DNA of 39,167 nucleotides from assembly GCF_021206925.1 (NCBI RefSeq), contig NZ_JAJPRF010000024.1, forward strand, positions 1 to 39,167. Direction: 5' to 3'. How positions within the stretch are numbered: position 1 is the first letter of the stretch; every line of letters starts with the position of its first letter. The stretch comes from Rhodoflexus caldus (GTDB taxonomy: Bacteria > Bacteroidota > Bacteroidia > Cytophagales > Thermoflexibacteraceae). A model generated the notes under the pieces. The model saw nothing but the letters and a program-made list of their open reading frames with translations, searched no databases and was not told the origin of the DNA. Positions 3,598 through 39,021 of the stretch are shown one piece after another. A program made the position numbers and the translations under genes.

Positions 3598-4719
3598 TTA
3601 GTTCAAACGTGCCGAGAGCCTTACCCAGCAGTCAGGCGGAACGCCATTGCAGGCAGTAACATAGTCCGTATAGCTACATGGAATGGCTCGCGGCTTACCG
3701 AAATTAAGCAGTGCCGATTCCTCATGTGGTAACTCGAGCCACCATTTATCGCTCTGTGCGTGTTTGTAAAATACCAAACTGTAAGCCGTTCCGATGGGCA
3801 CTACATATTTGATAAACTCAATGCCTGAAAAATCGGGCTGTTTGCTTTCTTTGTCATAGCCTTCAATAAAATACCACAACATGGTTGCCAGCAGCGATGC
3901 CATCAGTCCATAGGGGTCTTGTTGCGGTTGATAGCCGTACAGCCCGAACGATGAAAGATGCTCGCTTTTGCCCGCATACCATGCTATTTGGCAAGCCTCT
4001 TCCGTGGTCAGCCCGAACGGTACAGGCTGGTGTGGCGGGAAGAAAAAAGGCTTCAGCGCGCATACATCAAAACTTACCATATGCGCCGTCCTGATAAGCG
4101 GCTCGGCCTCTTTCATGTGGTCGCGCATTCTGCCAAGGCTCATCAGGTCAAAGCCAAGCCGCTGCCAAAGTTCTAAATGCGCCGTATCATTGATGTATTG
4201 CTGATAGCCGAGCAGCCCTGCACCCAATAAGAAATTAGGCTGACAGGTGATGATTTCATTTAAGTGGTCGGGCTTATCGCCGTGAATTTGCAAATCCAGC
4301 TTCTGGTCTATTTGCAGCACATACACCAATTGCCCTGCCGATTGGTAGGCCATAAATTGCCCTAAGTCCAGCTCATGCGCATGGCCTATGATGCAGGGAG
4401 TTATCCGTTTTTGCATCAAAAATTCGCAAACATCCTGCAAACGCAAGCGTGTTTCGGTAGCATCAATGCCTGCTTTCAGGCAACCCAAATCGGCTAATCG
4501 GTAGGTTTTATTGCTTTGGCGCAAGTTGTAAAAAGCCTTGCGAAAGGGGTCATCGGCAGAGGCCTCCCACCCGACAGTAAAAAAAGCAATATCAATGGAC
4601 TGCCAGTCCGGCAAGGCTTGCAAATCGTTAAAAATAGCCGAACCCATCCCCGAAAAAGGATGTGTGGTATAGGCTGTCATATGCTCATGTACGCTTTCAA
4701 AAAGTAATGACAAAGTCAT
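3598..4719 (-). CDS. Ureohydrolase (arginase/formimidoylglutamase) fold protein with an incomplete metal site
   Basis: The 373-residue protein (ATG at 4717-4719; the frame also extends to a TTG at 4773) matches the Bacteroidota branch of the arginase/agmatinase/formiminoglutamase fold, with a late motif GLTTEEACQIAWYAG typical of that branch. Canonical members bind two Mn ions through GGxH, DxHxD and SxDxD. Here the motifs read IGHAHEL (111-117), DQKLD (138-142) and SFDVC (216-220): the middle His is Lys and the last Asp is Cys. Two to three ligands are therefore missing, so activity on guanidino substrates is doubtful and the substrate unknown. It is divergent from rplB across a region with a 19-bp palindrome. 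Confidence 0.7.
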   Translation of the reverse strand: MTLSLLFESVHEHMTAYTTHPFSGMGSAIFNDLQALPDWQSIDIAFFTVGWEASADDPFRKAFYNLRQSNKTYRLADLGCLKAGIDATETRLRLQDVCEFLMQKRITPCIIGHAHELDLGQFMAYQSAGQLVYVLQIDQKLDLQIHGDKPDHLNEIITCQPNFLLGAGLLGYQQYINDTAHLELWQRLGFDLMSLGRMRDHMKEAEPLIRTAHMVSFDVCALKPFFFPPHQPVPFGLTTEEACQIAWYAGKSEHLSSFGLYGYQPQQDPYGLMASLLATMLWYFIEGYDKESKQPDFSGIEFIKYVVPIGTAYSLVFYKHAQSDKWWLELPHEESALLNFGKPRAIPCSYTDYVTACNGVPPDCWVRLSARLN

Positions 4720-5707: not shown

Positions 5708-5986
5708 ATGGGACGTTCGCTTAAGAAAGGGCCATATATAGACCACAACCTGGCCAAAAAAGTGGATGCCATGAATGCATCCAATAAAAAAGCGGTAATC
5801 AAAACATGGTCTCGCCGCTCAATGATATCCCCCGATTTTATCGGACATACTTTTGCCGTACACAATGGCAATAAGTTCATTCCTGTTTACGTAACAGATA
5901 ACATGGTAGGTCATAAACTCGGAGAGTTTGCCCCTACACGCACCTTCAAAGGACACACAGCCAAAAAAGACAAAGGCAAAAGGTAA
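5708..5986 (+). CDS. rpsS: 30S ribosomal protein S19
   Basis: Complete S19 of 92 residues, which binds the head of the 30S subunit with S13. The N-terminus ([12 protein letters not shown]) and the block [14 protein letters not shown] are typical. The AGGAGG just upstream (5692-5697) is part of the last L2 codons (Arg-Arg) and may double as a Shine-Dalgarno sequence. rplV begins with the ATG at 5988, one base after the S19 stop, so the genes are translationally coupled. Confidence 0.98.
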
Positions 5987-5987
5987 G

Positions 5988-6380
5988 ATGGAAGCTATCG
6001 CAAAATTGAACAACTGCCCCACCTCGCCGCGCAAAATGCGTATGGTTGCCGATATGGTAAGAGGTCAGAAGGTAAGTCGGGCACTCAGCATATTGAAGTA
6101 TGAAGCACGCTCCGGTGCTGCTAAACTCGAGAAACTCCTGCTGTCGGCAATTGCCAACTGGGAGCAAAAAAATCCTGATAAGAGAATCGAGGATGCCAAC
6201 TTGTACGTGAAGACAATTTTTGTAAACGAAGGCAAAATGTTGAAGCGTCTCCGTCCTGCGCCGCAAGGCCGTGCACACCGTGTTCGCAAGCGTTCTAACC
6301 ATGTTACCATCGTAGTAGATGAAATGCTGGGTATGAACATGGCAGCGCCTGTACAAGAAGAAACTCAAACTAACGCTTAA
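5988..6380 (+). CDS. rplV: 50S ribosomal protein L22
   Basis: L22, 130 residues, lines the peptide exit tunnel through its long beta-hairpin. The start ATG at 5988 was chosen because it gives the family N-terminus ([16 protein letters not shown]); an open frame further upstream lies inside rpsS. RGQKV at about 25-29 and the hairpin region [12 protein letters not shown] are diagnostic. A short acidic/Gln-Thr tail ends the protein. rpsC follows after 17 bp. Confidence 0.97.
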
Positions 6381-6397
6381 AAGGGGGATTCAAATCA

Positions 6398-7213
6398 ATG
6401 GGACAAAAAGTTAATCCTATAGGTCTTAGATTAGGTATCATCAAAGGATGGGACTCTAATTGGTATGGTGGCAAAGATTTCTCTGAAAAGCTGGTTGAAG
6501 ACGAGCAAATCAGAAAATATCTGAACGCCCGTATCCCCAAAGGCGGTATTTCACGCATTATCATTGAGCGTACACTCAAGCGCCTCACCATTACTATCAA
6601 CACTGCTCGCCCGGGTGTGGTGATTGGTAAGCAAGGTGCCGAAGTGGACAAAATCAAAGAAGAATTGAAGAAACTGACCAAAAAGGATGTTCAAATCAAT
6701 ATCTTCGAGATTAAGCGCCCTGAAATAGATGCACGCCTGATTGGCCAAACCATTGCACAGCAATTGGAAGCACGTATTTCCTTCCGCCGTGCCATGAAAA
6801 AGGCTATCAGCGATGCCATGCGTGTAGGTGCTCAGGGTATCAAAGTGCGTTTGTCAGGCCGTTTGGGCGGTGCTGAAATGGCACGTACCGAAGAGTACAA
6901 AGAAGGTCGCGTACCTCTGCACACACTGCGTGCCGACATTGATTACGCCATTACTGAGGCTTTGACCGTTTACGGCAAAATCGGTATCAAAGTATGGGTA
7001 TTCAAAGGTGAAGTTTATGGTCGTCCCGACTTGTCTCCTATCACCGGTACTTTGGCACGCAATGAAGGCGGCCAAGGCGGCGGCGAAGAGCGCAGCGGCG
7101 GTGAGCGTCGTCGTGGCGGTAATGAGCGCGGCGGTCGCGGTGGCAGCGAGCGTGGCCGTGGTGGACGCGGCGACCGTGGTGGTAACAACCGCGGTGGCGG
7201 AAAACGCAAGTAA
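6398..7213 (+). CDS. rpsC: 30S ribosomal protein S3 with Arg/Gly-rich tail
   Basis: S3 binds the mRNA entry side of the 30S head. The 271-residue product has the family N-terminus [13 protein letters not shown], a KH domain with VVIGKQG at 74-80, and the C-terminal S3 domain ending near 220. Residues 221-271 form a low-complexity tail of Gly, Arg, Glu and Asn with several RGG-like triplets, ending GGGKRK. Some Bacteroidota S3 proteins carry extensions, and RGG tracts generally bind RNA. It is the last gene of the operon: a strong terminator follows, and rplP, which normally comes next, is absent. Confidence 0.97.
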
Positions 7214-10220: not shown

Positions 10221-10294
10221 ATATCCGTTATTTGCCATGTGAAGCCGATGATACATTGCATCAATACATAGATTTTGTGGCAGATGCACGATTG

Positions 10295-10328
10295 AAATCC
10301 GAAATCCCGAATCCGAATTCCGAAATCC
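10295..10328. repeat. Dispersed AATCCGAA-type short repeat, copy 1
   Basis: An array of degenerate 7-9 base units (aatccga, aatcccga, aattccga) lies just before the fructosamine-kinase ATG. A similar array is at 22672-22714 and shares ATCCGAATTCC exactly. Both lie between genes. Confidence 0.55.
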
Positions 10329-10339
10329 TACGCCGAGCT

Positions 10340-11224
10340 ATGTTTTCAGCCGATGCACAAAACCAGTTTTTTGAATCCGTACTTTTTGAAGCAACGGGTT
10401 GGGAGCATCAAATAGAAGATATGCAGTTTTTGCATGGCGGCTGTATCAACAATGCCGTGCGGCTGCAAACCAATCGGGATAAGTATTTTTTGAAGTTTAA
10501 TGAGTCGGCGGCAGCCTATGAAATGTTTGATGCCGAAGCAAGGGGGCTGCAACTTTTGGCAGCCACCGAGTCGCTCACTACGCCGCGAGTCATCCATGCG
10601 GGCAAGCAGCAGGGGCGTTCCTATTTGTTGTTGGAGTTTTTCGAGCCAACCATCCCGCAACGCAACTACTGGGAGCAATTAGGACATGGGCTTGCTAAAC
10701 TGCATCGCCATCGGCAGCAGCAATTCGGGCTTGGTTTCAACAACTATATCGGCAGCTTGCCGCAAAGCAATGAGTGGATGAGCGATGGCATTGAATTTTT
10801 TATAGAAAAGCGGCTGCGTGTTCAGGCAGGGCTGGCCTACTACAATAATTTGATAGACAGTTCGTTATTAAGGCAATTAGATAGGTTTTACCAAAAGCTA
10901 CCCGATTTGATACCTAATACTTCGGCATCATTGCTGCACGGCGACTTGTGGGGCGGAAATATTATCACAGGACACAGAGGAGAACCCTGTTTGATAGACC
11001 CTGCCGTATATTTCGGTTTCCGTGAGGCAGAAATCGCTTACACACAACTTTTTGGCGGGTTCGAGCAACATTTTTATGATGCCTACCGCGAGGTGATGCC
11101 CTTAGACGGCAACTTTCGCGAGCGTGTACCCATTTACAATCTGTATCCCCTGTTGGTTCATCTTAATCTGTTTGGCGAGAGCTATCTGAGCAGCATCGAG
11201 CAAACGCTCCGACGTTTTTTGTAA
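10340..11224 (+). CDS. Fructosamine kinase family protein
   Basis: The 294-residue protein belongs to the fructosamine-3-kinase/ketosamine-kinase family of aminoglycoside-phosphotransferase-like kinases. These phosphorylate sugar adducts on lysines so that they fall off, repairing glycated proteins. Family marks are the P-loop-like FLHGGCINNAVRL, the LLEFF hinge, catalytic HGDLWGGN and the metal-binding LIDPAVYFGFREAEIA. The start was set at ATG 10340 since upstream in-frame codons run through the short repeat. It follows the NMT1-like gene by 119 bp and precedes the GAF gene by 31 bp. Exact substrate not determined. Confidence 0.9.
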   Translation: MFSADAQNQFFESVLFEATGWEHQIEDMQFLHGGCINNAVRLQTNRDKYFLKFNESAAAYEMFDAEARGLQLLAATESLTTPRVIHAGKQQGRSYLLLEFFEPTIPQRNYWEQLGHGLAKLHRHRQQQFGLGFNNYIGSLPQSNEWMSDGIEFFIEKRLRVQAGLAYYNNLIDSSLLRQLDRFYQKLPDLIPNTSASLLHGDLWGGNIITGHRGEPCLIDPAVYFGFREAEIAYTQLFGGFEQHFYDAYREVMPLDGNFRERVPIYNLYPLLVHLNLFGESYLSSIEQTLRRFL

Positions 11225-11255: not shown

Positions 11256-12011
11256 ATGGGACAACAGTTACAAGGCTTCTACCGCGAAGCTACCGAATTG
11301 GGCGGTATTCCTGCACGCACCAAACTTTCCATCATGACCAAAATCTCATCCATTGAGGCGAGTGTTTTGGAAGATAAGCCCGAGGTAGTGGCCTCTTTTG
11401 CAAAAGCGATGGAGCATATCCGCAAAGAGTTTGGCAAAGCGCCGGAAAGTAGCCTAAACAACCCGCTGCCGCAAAGTTCGTCAAGTACGGTACAAGCAGA
11501 CAATAGAAAAAATCTGAACTTACTTAGCGATTTTTTTGCTCAGCGCGAATTGTACCTTCGCAATGCAGATTTGCTGTTTTATCGTGTAACCGAGCTGTTA
11601 TCGCAAATGATTCATGTTGAGCGTGCAAGCGTATGGCTGTATAATGCAGACCATTCAGCTATTGTTTGCCGCGATTTATTCACCAAATCCGATGCGCAGC
11701 ATACGGCCGGGGCAATGCTGGAAGCTAAAATGTTTCCGCGTTATTTTGCCACTATCCGCACAGAGCGTACGCTGGCAGCCAATAACGCACACATACACCC
11801 GGGAACAAGTGAATTTAGTGAGCCCTATTTGAAGCCTTTGGGCATAAATTCTATGCTGGATGTCCCTATTTGGGTTAAAGGTGAAATGGTAGGAGTGCTG
11901 TGCCATGAGCACGTTGGTATGCCCCGTAATTGGACAGCCGAAGAGGAACAATTAGCCTATCTGATGGCCAATGTTTTGGCTACCTTTATGGAGTTCAATC
12001 AAATGTCATGA
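11256..12011 (+). CDS. GAF-domain protein
   Basis: The 251-residue soluble protein has an N-terminal helical region (1-65), a Ser/Gln-rich linker, a helix (about 85-105) and one GAF domain (about 105-248) with the blocks ERASVWLYN, GINSMLDVPIWVKGEMVGVLCHE and EEEQLAYLMANVLA. GAF domains bind small molecules or cyclic nucleotides. No output domain is present, so it may act by protein contact. Its stop overlaps the start of the flavin oxidoreductase gene by 4 bp (ATGA), so the two are translationally coupled and may share a redox-related role. Confidence 0.85.
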   Translation: MGQQLQGFYREATELGGIPARTKLSIMTKISSIEASVLEDKPEVVASFAKAMEHIRKEFGKAPESSLNNPLPQSSSSTVQADNRKNLNLLSDFFAQRELYLRNADLLFYRVTELLSQMIHVERASVWLYNADHSAIVCRDLFTKSDAQHTAGAMLEAKMFPRYFATIRTERTLAANNAHIHPGTSEFSEPYLKPLGINSMLDVPIWVKGEMVGVLCHEHVGMPRNWTAEEEQLAYLMANVLATFMEFNQMS

Positions 12012-12967
12012 GTTTTAGCAACAGAATTACGGAACTGCTGAATATCCGATACCCCATTATTCAGGCAGGTATGGTATGGTGCAGCGGTTGGCGGTTGGCG
12101 GCTGCCGTATCCGGTGCCGGAGGTTTAGGCATCATTGGTGCCGGTTCTATGTATCCTGACGTGCTGCGCGAGCACATCCGCAAGTGCCGTGCGGCCTTGC
12201 CGCCCCAAACGACTTTCGCCGTTAATGTCCCTATGCTCTACCCCGATATTGATAAGCACATGGCTATCATTATGGAGGAGCAAGTACCTGTTGTGTTCAC
12301 CTCGGCGGGCAACCCTGCCACTTGGACGGGCACGTTGAAAGCTACCGGCATTCGCGTGGTACACGTGGTTAGCAGTGTCAAATTTGCCCAAAAGGCCGAA
12401 CAGGCAGGGGTAGATGCAGTAGTGGCAGAAGGCTTTGAGGCCGGCGGGCACAATGGCCGCGAGGAAACCACTACTTTCTGCCTGATTCCGATGGTGCGGC
12501 AGGCCATACAAATTCCGCTGATTGCTGCCGGCGGCATTGCCAACGGGGCGGGTATGTTGGCCGCCTTTGCGCTGGGGGCAGAGGGCGTGCAAATAGGCAC
12601 TCGTTTTGCCGTTTCGGAGGAATCATCTGCCCATTCTGCATTTAAAGCAAAAGTTATCGGAATAAAGGAAGGCGAAACAGAGTTGGTTCTCAAACAGTTA
12701 GCTCCTGTGCGATTGATTAAAAATGAATTTTACCAACAAGTTAAACAGGCGGAACTGCGAGGTGCTACGGCCGAAGAACTGCGCACGCTGTTGGGCAGGG
12801 GGCGCGCCAAAAAAGGCATATTTGAAGGCGATATGACCGAAGGAGAATTGGAAATCGGGCAAATTGCCGCACTGATAGACAGCATTAAGCCTGCCGCACA
12901 GATAGTAGATGAAATTTGGCAGGAGTTCAGGCAGGAACTTAACCGATTGCGACAACTGCCTGCTTAA
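12008..12967 (+). CDS. FMN-dependent oxidoreductase, nitronate monooxygenase/FabK family
   Basis: The 319-residue TIM-barrel flavoprotein starts NRITELLNIRYPIIQAGM, the family N-terminus, followed by AAAVSGAGGLGIIGAG. It then has EGFEAGGHNGREE in the FMN phosphate/active-site region, AAGGIANGAGMLAAFALGAEGVQIGTRF and a helical C-terminus. The family includes nitronate monooxygenases and the enoyl-ACP reductase FabK; sequence alone does not decide which. The start ATG (12008) overlaps the GAF stop. An 18-bp bidirectional terminator lies at the stop. Confidence 0.9.
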   Translation: MSFSNRITELLNIRYPIIQAGMVWCSGWRLAAAVSGAGGLGIIGAGSMYPDVLREHIRKCRAALPPQTTFAVNVPMLYPDIDKHMAIIMEEQVPVVFTSAGNPATWTGTLKATGIRVVHVVSSVKFAQKAEQAGVDAVVAEGFEAGGHNGREETTTFCLIPMVRQAIQIPLIAAGGIANGAGMLAAFALGAEGVQIGTRFAVSEESSAHSAFKAKVIGIKEGETELVLKQLAPVRLIKNEFYQQVKQAELRGATAEELRTLLGRGRAKKGIFEGDMTEGELEIGQIAALIDSIKPAAQIVDEIWQEFRQELNRLRQLPA

Positions 12968-22656: not shown

Positions 22657-22671
22657 CCAAATAACTCGCGC

Positions 22672-22714
22672 AAATCCCAAATCCGAATTCCCCATTCCCA
22701 AATCCGAACTCCGG
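22672..22714. repeat. Dispersed AATCCGAA-type short repeat, copy 2
   Basis: Degenerate units (aatccca, aatccga, attcccc, aatccga) follow the mltD stop. They share the 11-mer ATCCGAATTCC with the array at 10295-10328. The remainder of the gap to 22727 shows nothing else. Confidence 0.55.
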
Positions 22715-36514: not shown

Positions 36515-36555
36515 CAGCACTGCAACCTCTCTCAACTATTTTGCATATCGGTAAT

Positions 36556-37155
36556 ATGCCAAACCAATTACTCTCTGCTATTATTTGCGGTACAGCATCC
36601 GTAAGTAAGCACCTGACTGCGTTACTTCATTCCCTTATTAGGGTCAAACAAGAGGCAACGGATGTACGTCTTTTGCCCGGCTTAGCCTATGCAATCCGGC
36701 CTGATGTGGTGATTGTATGTTGTGTGGCGAAATATTCCTGTCCGCTGGCGCATCTGCGCTGCTTGCAAACGCACCTGCCCCACTGTCCCATTATTATTTA
36801 CAGCGACCGTTCACCTGAACATTGGGCAGAAATATCCCCGCGTGCACTGATACATCCGAAGGATGATAGGATGGAATGGGCTACCTGCCTGCGCAATTTA
36901 AGCAACGGAAGAACCTATACTTCACCTTTGCTGGCCTCGCAAGCTACCCTGCAAGGCGCAGATGGTAGCACAAGACTGACTAATATGGAACAAAAAGTTT
37001 TAAATATACTGAAAGAGTTGCCCGATGTGCGTCCTACGGAACTATTGCATATCAGTAAGCATACACTCAAAAACCATAAAACCAACATTGCAAAAAAATT
37101 GCATCTCAAATCTGCAAGAGAGTTGCAAAAATGGATTCAGGAAAACAAAAAATAG
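36556..37155 (+). CDS. LuxR-type transcriptional regulator with degenerate receiver-like domain
   Basis: The 199-residue protein (ATG 36556, preferred to a TTG at 36541) ends in a LuxR/GerE helix-turn-helix at about 140-199. It has LTNMEQKVLNILKEL, the recognition-helix region HISKHTLKNHKTNI and KKLHLKS. The first 120 residues have the strand pattern of a receiver (PDVVIVCC, CPIIIYSD, ALIHPKDD), but I cannot identify an acidic pocket or a clear phospho-Asp, so it may not be phosphorylated. No partner kinase is adjacent. It stands before the lipoprotein/barrel genes and may control them. The region is more A+T rich than the genes to its left. Confidence 0.8.
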   Translation: MPNQLLSAIICGTASVSKHLTALLHSLIRVKQEATDVRLLPGLAYAIRPDVVIVCCVAKYSCPLAHLRCLQTHLPHCPIIIYSDRSPEHWAEISPRALIHPKDDRMEWATCLRNLSNGRTYTSPLLASQATLQGADGSTRLTNMEQKVLNILKELPDVRPTELLHISKHTLKNHKTNIAKKLHLKSARELQKWIQENKK

Positions 37156-37201: not shown

Positions 37202-37209
37202 TAATTTTG
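37202..37209 (+). promoter_or_regulatory. Candidate -7 element for the lipoprotein gene
   Basis: TAATTTTG matches TAnnTTTG, 30 bases before the ATG at 37240. The -33 region is only a T run from the preceding terminator. Confidence 0.4.
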
Positions 37210-37239: not shown

Positions 37240-38301
37240 ATGAAAAAATCCTTGTTATCACTGAAACTTATGATGTTAATGATGATTGGTAACTCGTGCC
37301 AAAATTCATTATCAGAGCTTGACAAAGAAATATCTTTATCAGGTACTACACATCAGGTAGATTTATTAGAGCGGTTTTCTGATAAATCTGTAAATAATTT
37401 TTTGCGGTTTGAATCTATTGAAGAACTGAAATAAGCATACAACAGCCGCGCAACAGGGGGGGCGTTAGCTCGTTTAAATTCGCGGACAGTTGGTTTTCGT
37501 TCCTTAGAGGATGCGAGAAATGATGAGTATGCACGGTTTATGAATACGTATGAACGAACAATTCGAGATTTGAAACCCACTGACTATCTCAAAGCATTAG
37601 CAATTGAAAGCAGTGTCCAAAAAAGTCTTAACAAGTATGAAGGCCTTATATCTTTTTCAATGGACAAAGGCTTTGATATTGATATGGTTTGGAGTATTTA
37701 TGCACCTTTTGTAAATGAAAGAGGTATTGTTCAAATAGGCAATGATTTGTACCAGTTTGATACGCAGAACGTCAAAATTAAACGTAATGCTTCTGTATCA
37801 GATATTCCAAGCTTACTTGCGGCAAAGAGCAGTAATCAGAAACAAGAGATAGAAGTTATTCCTACAAGAGTAACGGGAGCATCGCCTTCTAATGGTCGTA
37901 TTGAGGATGCATCTTATGGGACATTAGTCAGAAATCGTTTTTGCCAAAATTCATTATCTGCACATAGAATTTTAGTTTATGAAGACTTGTATCGTAAACT
38001 TGGTCCTTTGCAAGGATTTAATATAGTAATAACCTTGCGCGGGCTCCAGAGAGTTGGTCTTTTCTTTTGGGGTGATTTTTATAATGGAGAGTTAAGTGGT
38101 ACATGTAGCTACCAATTTCAGGGAGAATCTCCCCAATTTAGAGTTATTCCAATGATTGTAGATACGAAGAATGAATTTAGTTTTGATGCGACCAATAATG
38201 GTAATCTAAACTGTACAAATGGTACTTGTTTATCAGCAACCACGTACGGTCAAATGCGGGTACCTGGTGCTGGTATTGCTCAATGTACAATCATGCCTTA
38301 A
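37240..38301 (+). pseudogene. Lipoprotein-like gene interrupted by an in-frame TAA
   Basis: The frame starts at ATG 37240 with a signal region (MKKSLLSLKLMMLMMIGNSC, possible lipidated Cys20) and runs open to 38301 except for one TAA at 37432-37434. Translation across it reads ...SIEELK-stop-AYNSRATGG...YARFMNTYERT, with no frame change. An AAA-to-TAA change would create it from a Lys-Lys pair. A run of seven G at 37456-37462 lies 21 bp after the stop. Both halves look coding. The downstream half could restart at ATG 37540 but would lack the signal peptide. The family is not recognised. Full length would be 353 codons. The barrel gene follows closely. Confidence 0.75.
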
Positions 38302-38334
38302 ATGTTTTTATTGATATAATTATGAAAAGAGCTC

Positions 38335-39021
38335 ATGTGGTTTTTTCACTATGCCTGTTACTTATTACTTATTACGTATTACGCAAATGCACAGACATCT
38401 GTGGAAACAGGTTACCAATCATCGTGGATAATTAAAGGCGGTTTTAACCAATCTACTCAGGATATCAGTAGAATTACAGCGATAGTTCCGCCTGGGCCTG
38501 ATGGAGGGATCTCTTATAATGGTATAAGATCAGGTGCCTTACAAGAACGTTCTTCTTATCATTTAGGGATATTTCGTGAATGGCATCTGAGGGGTGGCCT
38601 CAACTTCATTTCCGGTTTGTCTTTTCGCCAAAAAGGGGGTATCATGACTACTCTTAGAGAACCTGCATTATCAAGTAATCAGCATCTGATTACAAACTAT
38701 ATCAGCTTGGATGGGAATGTTAAATATTTGTTTGGTAAAAATCCAAGATTACAACCTTATCTGACAGCTGGTTTCCGGGTAGATTATTTATTATCACGCA
38801 ACGATAATGACTATTTTGATATGTTATACACCTTCAGTCGGCAGCGTCGTTTTGATTTTGGTCCGGTGTTAGGGGCAGGTGTACAAACAAAAATTGGAAA
38901 GCAGCGCATTTTGTTTGAAGCCGAATACAATCCGGGGATTTTTCCTGTGATAACTCCGAGCCTTCTTCCAACTATAGCTTTTAATAAATCTTATGCCTTT
39001 ACCATAGGTTTTATATTCTAA
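38335..39021 (+). CDS. Outer-membrane beta-barrel protein with disrupted or switchable start
   Basis: The 228-residue product reads as a porin-family/PorT-like barrel: after ANAQ it has alternating strands (YHLGIFREWHL, GLNFISGLSFRQKGG, NYISLDGNVKYLF, LQPYLTAGFRVDYLL, FGPVLGAGVQTKIG) and ends in FTIGFIF with the C-terminal Phe of outer-membrane proteins. In the present sequence the in-frame start is ATG 38335, giving an N-terminus without Lys/Arg. An upstream ATG at 38322 opens with MKRAHVVFSLCLLLITYY, a good signal start, but is one base out of frame and ends at 38435. A 7-bp tandem repeat between the two explains the shift. Probably cotranscribed with the broken lipoprotein gene. Confidence 0.75.
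   Translation: MWFFHYACYLLLITYYANAQTSVETGYQSSWIIKGGFNQSTQDISRITAIVPPGPDGGISYNGIRSGALQERSSYHLGIFREWHLRGGLNFISGLSFRQKGGIMTTLREPALSSNQHLITNYISLDGNVKYLFGKNPRLQPYLTAGFRVDYLLSRNDNDYFDMLYTFSRQRRFDFGPVLGAGVQTKIGKQRILFEAEYNPGIFPVITPSLLPTIAFNKSYAFTIGFIF
38358..38383 (+). repeat. Heptanucleotide tandem repeat in signal-peptide codons
   Basis: Units TTACTTA (38358-38364), TTACTTA (38365-38371), TTACGTA (38372-38378) and partial TTACG. Seven bases is not a multiple of three, so each gain or loss shifts the frame. Losing one unit fuses the ATG at 38322 to the barrel frame, reading CLLLITYYANAQT. Confidence 0.85.

Follow-up and report, generated by a model that had tools for sequence, protein, structure and literature searches.

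The window analysed here, a whole stretch of 39,167 nucleotides, corresponds to contig C24 (39,167 bp) in its entirety, the genome measuring 3.96 Mb. It carries, ending 146 bp from the contig end, an outer-membrane beta-barrel gene whose best-looking start codon is not in frame with the barrel. The question raised by this locus is whether such a gene is switched off by a repeat array in its signal-peptide codons, is in the course of decay, or is simply read from another start. The interpretation preferred below, to which a probability of about one half is given, is that this gene and the lipoprotein gene preceding it form a pair drawn from a family with slippage arrays, and that the assembled copy would be OFF, or weakly expressed if the alternative start at position 38335 is used.

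The heptamer array and the reading frames of the barrel gene

The barrel frame lies on the forward strand and extends from its first in-frame ATG to the end of the gene (38335..39021). Its product belongs to the family PF13568 (OMP_b-brl_2), with a score of 50.3 bits for a curated cut-off of 27. The signal-peptide codons of this gene contain a heptamer array (38358..38385, forward strand). The earlier note had reported three units, and these are all present in the sequence, namely two copies of TTACTTA (38358-38364 and 38365-38371) followed by TTACGTA (38372-38378); a fourth and more diverged unit, TTACGCA (38379-38385), adjoins them and had not been counted. Tandem Repeats Finder describes the array by a period of 7, 3.6 copies, 94% matches and a score of 43. 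The array is short, with 2.6 exact units.

The best-looking start, ATG 38322, opens a frame (38322..38435, forward strand) that is translated as MKRAHVVFSLCLLLITYYVLRK... and terminated by the TAA at 38433-38435. It had been claimed that this ATG lies out of the barrel frame and that its frame ends at 38435, and both points were confirmed when the frames were read again. The offset is precisely the amount that can be corrected by one heptamer unit. In the barrel frame itself, a TGA (38323..38325, forward strand) closes the frame just upstream, so that ATG 38335, with the leader MWFFHYACYLLLITYYANAQ, is the sole in-frame ATG ahead of the barrel body. ATG 38322 is presumably the true start of the barrel gene. 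Two features of Opa-type genes are found together at this place: a tandem array in the 5' coding part of the barrel gene with a unit length not divisible by 3, and a best start that is brought in or out of frame by the number of units.

The rarity of such an array was evaluated in several ways. The 14-mer TTACTTATTACTTA occurs a single time in the 3.96-Mb genome. Exact period-7 runs of at least 11 matches are found twice in the window, whereas 200 sequences simulated to first order averaged 0.03 such runs, six of them having at least one and none having two; in a 419-kb sample of the same genome, window included, no such run was detected beyond these two. A census of leader arrays was also made in this 419-kb sample, on non-overlapping ORFs of at least 150 aa from outside the family, taking the first 165 nt with 30 nt upstream included. 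A strict array of some kind was found in 7 of 328 ORFs, the barrel gene being among the seven. Taken alone, as a feature of the barrel leader, the array is unusual, not extreme. Other period-7 repeats can be observed in the window, as degenerate arrays of about five copies each at 10294-10328 (GAAATCC-like, near the start of the ORF 10232-11224) and 22671-22705 (CAAATCC-like), and as an exact GCGGTTG heptamer of 2.6 copies at 12084-12101, within the ORF 11930-12967.

Leader arrays in the family of the partner lipoprotein

The gene that precedes the barrel, identified by frame reading and homology, encodes a DUF4848-related lipoprotein (37240..38301, forward strand) and ends twenty bases before ATG 38322. 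Read from ATG 37240, its leader, MKKSLLSLKLMMLMMIGNSC, ends in NSC. Ahead of the pair, reading of the sequence revealed TAATTTTG (37202..37209, forward strand), which may be a promoter element of the Bacteroidota -7 type. The ORF located just 5' of the pair (36541-37155) has by eye the look of a LuxR-type regulator, with no Pfam match at 1e-3. Relatives of the pair are present twice in the genome G009, with 30-32% identity for the lipoproteins and 26-27% for the barrels. Since the body of the window lipoprotein aligns with the lipoproteins preceding the barrel homologues of G009, the unit to be considered is the pair of lipoprotein and barrel.

The affiliation of this lipoprotein is indirect. 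It matches no Pfam family and does not reach the curated cut-off of PF16140 (DUF4848, lipoproteins of Bacteroidota), and neither of its two G009 relatives matches a Pfam family. It is tied to PF16140 members via intermediate sequences only: three of the ten family proteins that were scanned pass the cut-off of 22.8 bits (L056 with 30.7, L058 with 23.2 and L061 with 32.5), and L061 bears an array as well. A search of NCBIfam gave only matches below cut-off, and a PDB profile search using the lipoprotein alignment gave no significant match (best E 0.066).

The order was searched with the lipoprotein alignment, with matches in 24 of 390 genomes for A2 (E 1e-3) and in 42 of 390 for the A3 profile (E 1e-5), at most five candidates per genome being scored in the latter case. 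Among the matches listed, 65 unique ORFs were obtained. Four of them were discarded, of which one was a duplicate and two were fragments, the last being L080, another lipoprotein that shares an array-bearing leader; four without a recognisable lipobox were set aside, namely the window's own (L050), L059, L060 and L065, which left 57 leaders; L050 and L059 are severed from their leaders by an in-frame TAA. Multi-base arrays are present in 17 of the 31 leaders from four families of Cytophagales (f1, f2, f14 and f22) and in none of the 26 from f10, f12 and f19, with the reservation that the A3 profile defining the family includes array-bearing leaders and that L080 was matched through its leader. 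When the array-free leaders of L050 and L059 are counted, the proportion becomes 17/33. The reservation about the profile is answered, only in part, by a recount in which membership was decided on the protein body alone, leader columns removed: arrays were then found in 13 of 23 members of the four families and in none of the 24 others. A further search of f2, f14 and f22 (11, 15 and 8 genomes, respectively) added little; of three more members, L133 and L135, both of f22, carry arrays and L190 of f14 has none.

The units found in the signal-peptide codons of the family are 2, 4, 5, 7 or 8 bp long. The lipoproteins of G009 have (AC)14, (CT)8 and (TC)11, of which the first two belong to the relatives of the window pair, in both cases with the best ATG out of frame. 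Octamers are found in G008 (3, 9 and 4.6 units), G169 (12 units) and G005 (10 units), heptamers in G074, G010 and G004, where one gene reaches 15.6 units, a tetramer of 10 units in G137 and pentamers in G127 and G115. In these other genomes the arrays reside mainly in the lipoprotein gene, not in its partner. Indeed, among the 50 downstream ORFs listed at the family loci, window barrel included, a comparable heptamer was seen besides that of the window in one case, the ORF following L054 in G006 (16 nt, in frame). Most signal-peptide leaders of this listing have K/R near the start; in the ORFs following L059 and L070, no in-frame ATG is present there.

Controls were drawn from the sampled stretches. 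Under the lipobox rule applied to the family, for which the score is 17/31, arrays occur in 3 of 228 non-family leaders (L178 set aside); a stricter lipobox rule gives 18/29 for the family versus 3/112. An earlier control sample, under the stricter rule, had yielded 2/48 in the window's own genome and 2/65 in relatives, that is 4/113, and L178, one of these four array-bearing controls, is a weak family member according to the A3 search. The comparison of 17/31 with 4/113 by Fisher's test gives p = 2e-10, family and control being counted here under different lipobox rules. The idea that arrays are common to all lipoprotein leaders of the sampled genomes is not supported by these control values, be it 4/113 or the 3/228 of the looser rule. 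For the family ORFs located within the sampled stretches of relatives, the proportion is 9/10, many of these stretches having been chosen for holding a member.

The position of the start codon was then tabulated for 54 members, three contig-edge cases being left out, with a good in-frame start defined as an ATG followed within eight residues by K or R. Of the 16 array-bearing members, 5 have such a start, as do 32 of the 38 without an array (Fisher p = 2.8e-4), and one in three is expected for a random frame. Two assignments are debatable by eye, in opposite directions: L078 owes its in-frame status to a distant Met, and L136, although in frame, has no K/R close to the start; if both calls are reversed together, the in-frame total is unchanged. 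Six array-free members are also devoid of a good in-frame start, and in one of these, L055, eight consecutive A occupy this place.

More direct indications are given by loci that differ in their number of units. Paralogous leaders with similar flanks differ by whole units in G010 (heptamer, 3.7 versus 1.7) and in G004 (AC, 7 versus 5). In G074, heptamer leaders of 2.6 and 3.6 units are found, the second on a different lipoprotein with the same leader. Slippage at the window array is credible because these heptamer arrays of G074 and G010, of similar length, differ by whole units. On a contig of G074 (L166, G074:C5), two different lipoproteins (3902-4588 and 5806-6948) share a nearly identical array-bearing leader, which suggests that leaders behave as modules, by duplication or by swapping.

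The clearest comparison involves G035 and G115, two species of one genus. A stretch of 6.5 kb aligns between them at 91% overall. Within it, a block of 2,722 bp around the lipoprotein gene (L179, G115:C188, 15363-18084, versus G035:C25) differs between the two by a single 5-bp unit directly behind the start codon, and is otherwise identical; the gene region has 1320/1320 identical aligned bases, and identity outside the block is 85% (3176/3726). This single unit places the gene of G115 in frame and that of G035 out of frame. The simplest reading, judging from these alignments, is probably that the two species recently exchanged this block, with a later change in the array and in no other base; a chimeric or contaminated assembly is possible.

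Possible decay, downstream start or assembly error

The same features of the window can be read in another way. It is conceivable, even if we regard it as somewhat improbable, that the pair is decaying: a nonsense codon would have inactivated the lipoprotein gene, and a single 7-bp slippage, not to be reversed, the barrel gene. This rival is a serious one because the partner lipoprotein gene is interrupted by an in-frame TAA (37432..37434, forward strand) and its leader is free of arrays, none being found when it was scanned. A run of seven G is located shortly 3' of this codon (37456..37462, forward strand); as a switch rescuing the lipoprotein gene it was rejected, the TAA being upstream of the run and in the same frame. 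Comparable lesions exist among relatives, since L059 of G010 is likewise interrupted early by an in-frame TAA, within the same part of the gene, and the frames of L055 and L079 end early, with stops inside the match.

The distribution of the locus also bears on decay. In three congeneric genomes, no match to the lipoprotein was obtained at E 1; for the barrel there was none in two of them and, in the third (G003), one partial match at 23%; that the locus would be part of the genus core is accordingly not supported. The gltB protein of the window matches four MAG records (best segments: uncultured Cytophagales 98%, Bernardetiaceae 91% and 86%, Cytophagales 73%). The blastn alignment with the closest of these relatives halts at about 36,200, before the pair, and the stretch beyond gltB gave no blastn alignment to the locus of any of the four. 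A protein scan of genome contigs detected no relative of the barrel, in a set outside which very near genomes may fall, and a second genome with the window locus was not found among the genomes searched. A scan of the window against Rfam gave no match.

Against decay stands the barrel ORF, otherwise intact with 228 codons and a typical barrel C-terminus, as well as the position of the array, in the part of the gene where family arrays recur. Moreover, a gene that was switched off and then decayed would still represent phase variation in origin. In the window, lipoprotein and barrel genes alike are compromised at present, and a locus in decay would also fit this particular copy.

Normal synthesis of the barrel from ATG 38335, by way of an unusual signal peptide and with an incidental heptamer, is unlikely. 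The frame from this codon is open, with a hydrophobic core and an ANA-Q site, and leaders of this kind have some precedent: in the own-genome sample, 6 of 47 AxAQ-type leaders with an ATG are without K/R, a figure that counts the barrel leader among the six and in which some may not be real signal peptides. The earlier note had called ATG 38335 a poor fallback. This description is borne out by the absence of K/R from its leader, whereas ATG 38322 opens a leader beginning with K-R, the two nearest barrel homologues, from the related pairs of G009, start with MTKYFF and MKLFPV, and K/R is seen by eye near the leader start in the seven other secreted PF13568 paralogues of the window's genome, one of which has no ATG within the printed stretch. 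The description is weakened by the length of the leader, 20 residues as in the G009 homologue at L003, and by the alignment of their Met residues. Lastly, it is very improbable that the number of units was altered by an error of sequencing or assembly, or that the assembler retained a minority allele: the assembly is a single one and the gene lies close to the contig end, but an array of 28 bp is easily spanned by a short read, and the values listed for the genome are 100% completeness and 0.01% contamination.

A putative translational switch and related systems

The earlier note had proposed a possible phase switch for the barrel gene. The preferred reading, that of a pair taken from a family with slippage arrays, gains from the array and its frame offset, from the recurrence in the lipoprotein family of arrays with the best start out of frame, and from the one-unit frame flip between near-identical loci of another genus; it loses from the window partner, which has a nonsense codon and no array. 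Under this reading, replication slippage would add or remove a unit of the array and, with unit lengths that are never divisible by three, would shift the start codon in or out of frame. The cell would make the surface protein when the frame is in, and none when it is out. The repeated residues would be tolerated by signal peptides. The benefit may be an escape from recognition of the surface protein by a phage, a toxin or a predator, an idea with which the exchange of a block between species is compatible.

A DUF4848-related family of Opa-like translational switches is probably real, and the window copy is a plausible, possibly decaying, member of it. For the window itself, we infer that the heptamer of 3-4 units would switch in living cells, the barrel being then made and exported. 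On a larger scale, it can be proposed with moderate confidence that DUF4848-related lipoprotein modules, often followed by a gene for a barrel or another surface protein, constitute a widespread and so far unrecognised phase-variable class in Cytophagales. Different arrays, with units of 2 to 8 bp, would have arisen repeatedly in their export-signal codons and the modules would have passed from one species to another, a pattern to be expected under selection by phages or rival bacteria against a surface state that never changes. In the window version, the switch would be in the barrel gene.

Repeat-slippage switches are best known from host-adapted pathogens. The opa genes of Neisseria, as described in passages of PMC4534519, have CTCTT repeats in their signal-peptide codons, and a change in unit number flips the frame. 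The likeness resides in units not divisible by three placed within the export-signal codons of an outer-membrane protein. The arrays reported here differ from opa by their phylum and by a unit length that varies between relatives (2, 4, 5, 7 and 8 bp). They are moreover mostly borne by a lipoprotein gene, with a gene for a barrel or another surface protein downstream of it. In Bacteroides, passages of a 2025 review (PMC11868660) describe ON/OFF switching of outer-membrane proteins by DNA inversion. These systems belong to the same phylum and also concern ON/OFF surface proteins, but their mechanism, as given there, is inversion and not repeat slippage. In the open-licence literature, subscription journals being outside this scope, DUF4848 appeared in one paper, in the excerpt concerned as an entry of an iron-response table, and no title or abstract start among the matches listed dealt with this lipoprotein family.

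If true, this interpretation would extend bet-hedging by repeat slippage to a new lineage, the Cytophagales, and such arrays would provide a marker for surface proteins under strong and fluctuating selection. It would also warn annotators of wrong starts or pseudogene calls for such genes.

The search was also carried outside the order, at the level of the class, where 15 of 395 genomes were matched, two of them within the order. Fifteen new places were obtained; an ORF was matched at 14 of them, and a lipobox could be recognised in 12. Two of these 12 ORFs have multi-base arrays, clear in L201 and marginal and AT-rich in L202. In L201, from a genome of another order of the class (G719), a tetramer of about 6.75 units follows the ATG, which is out of frame. 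Because of this tetramer array, the pattern may extend beyond the order.
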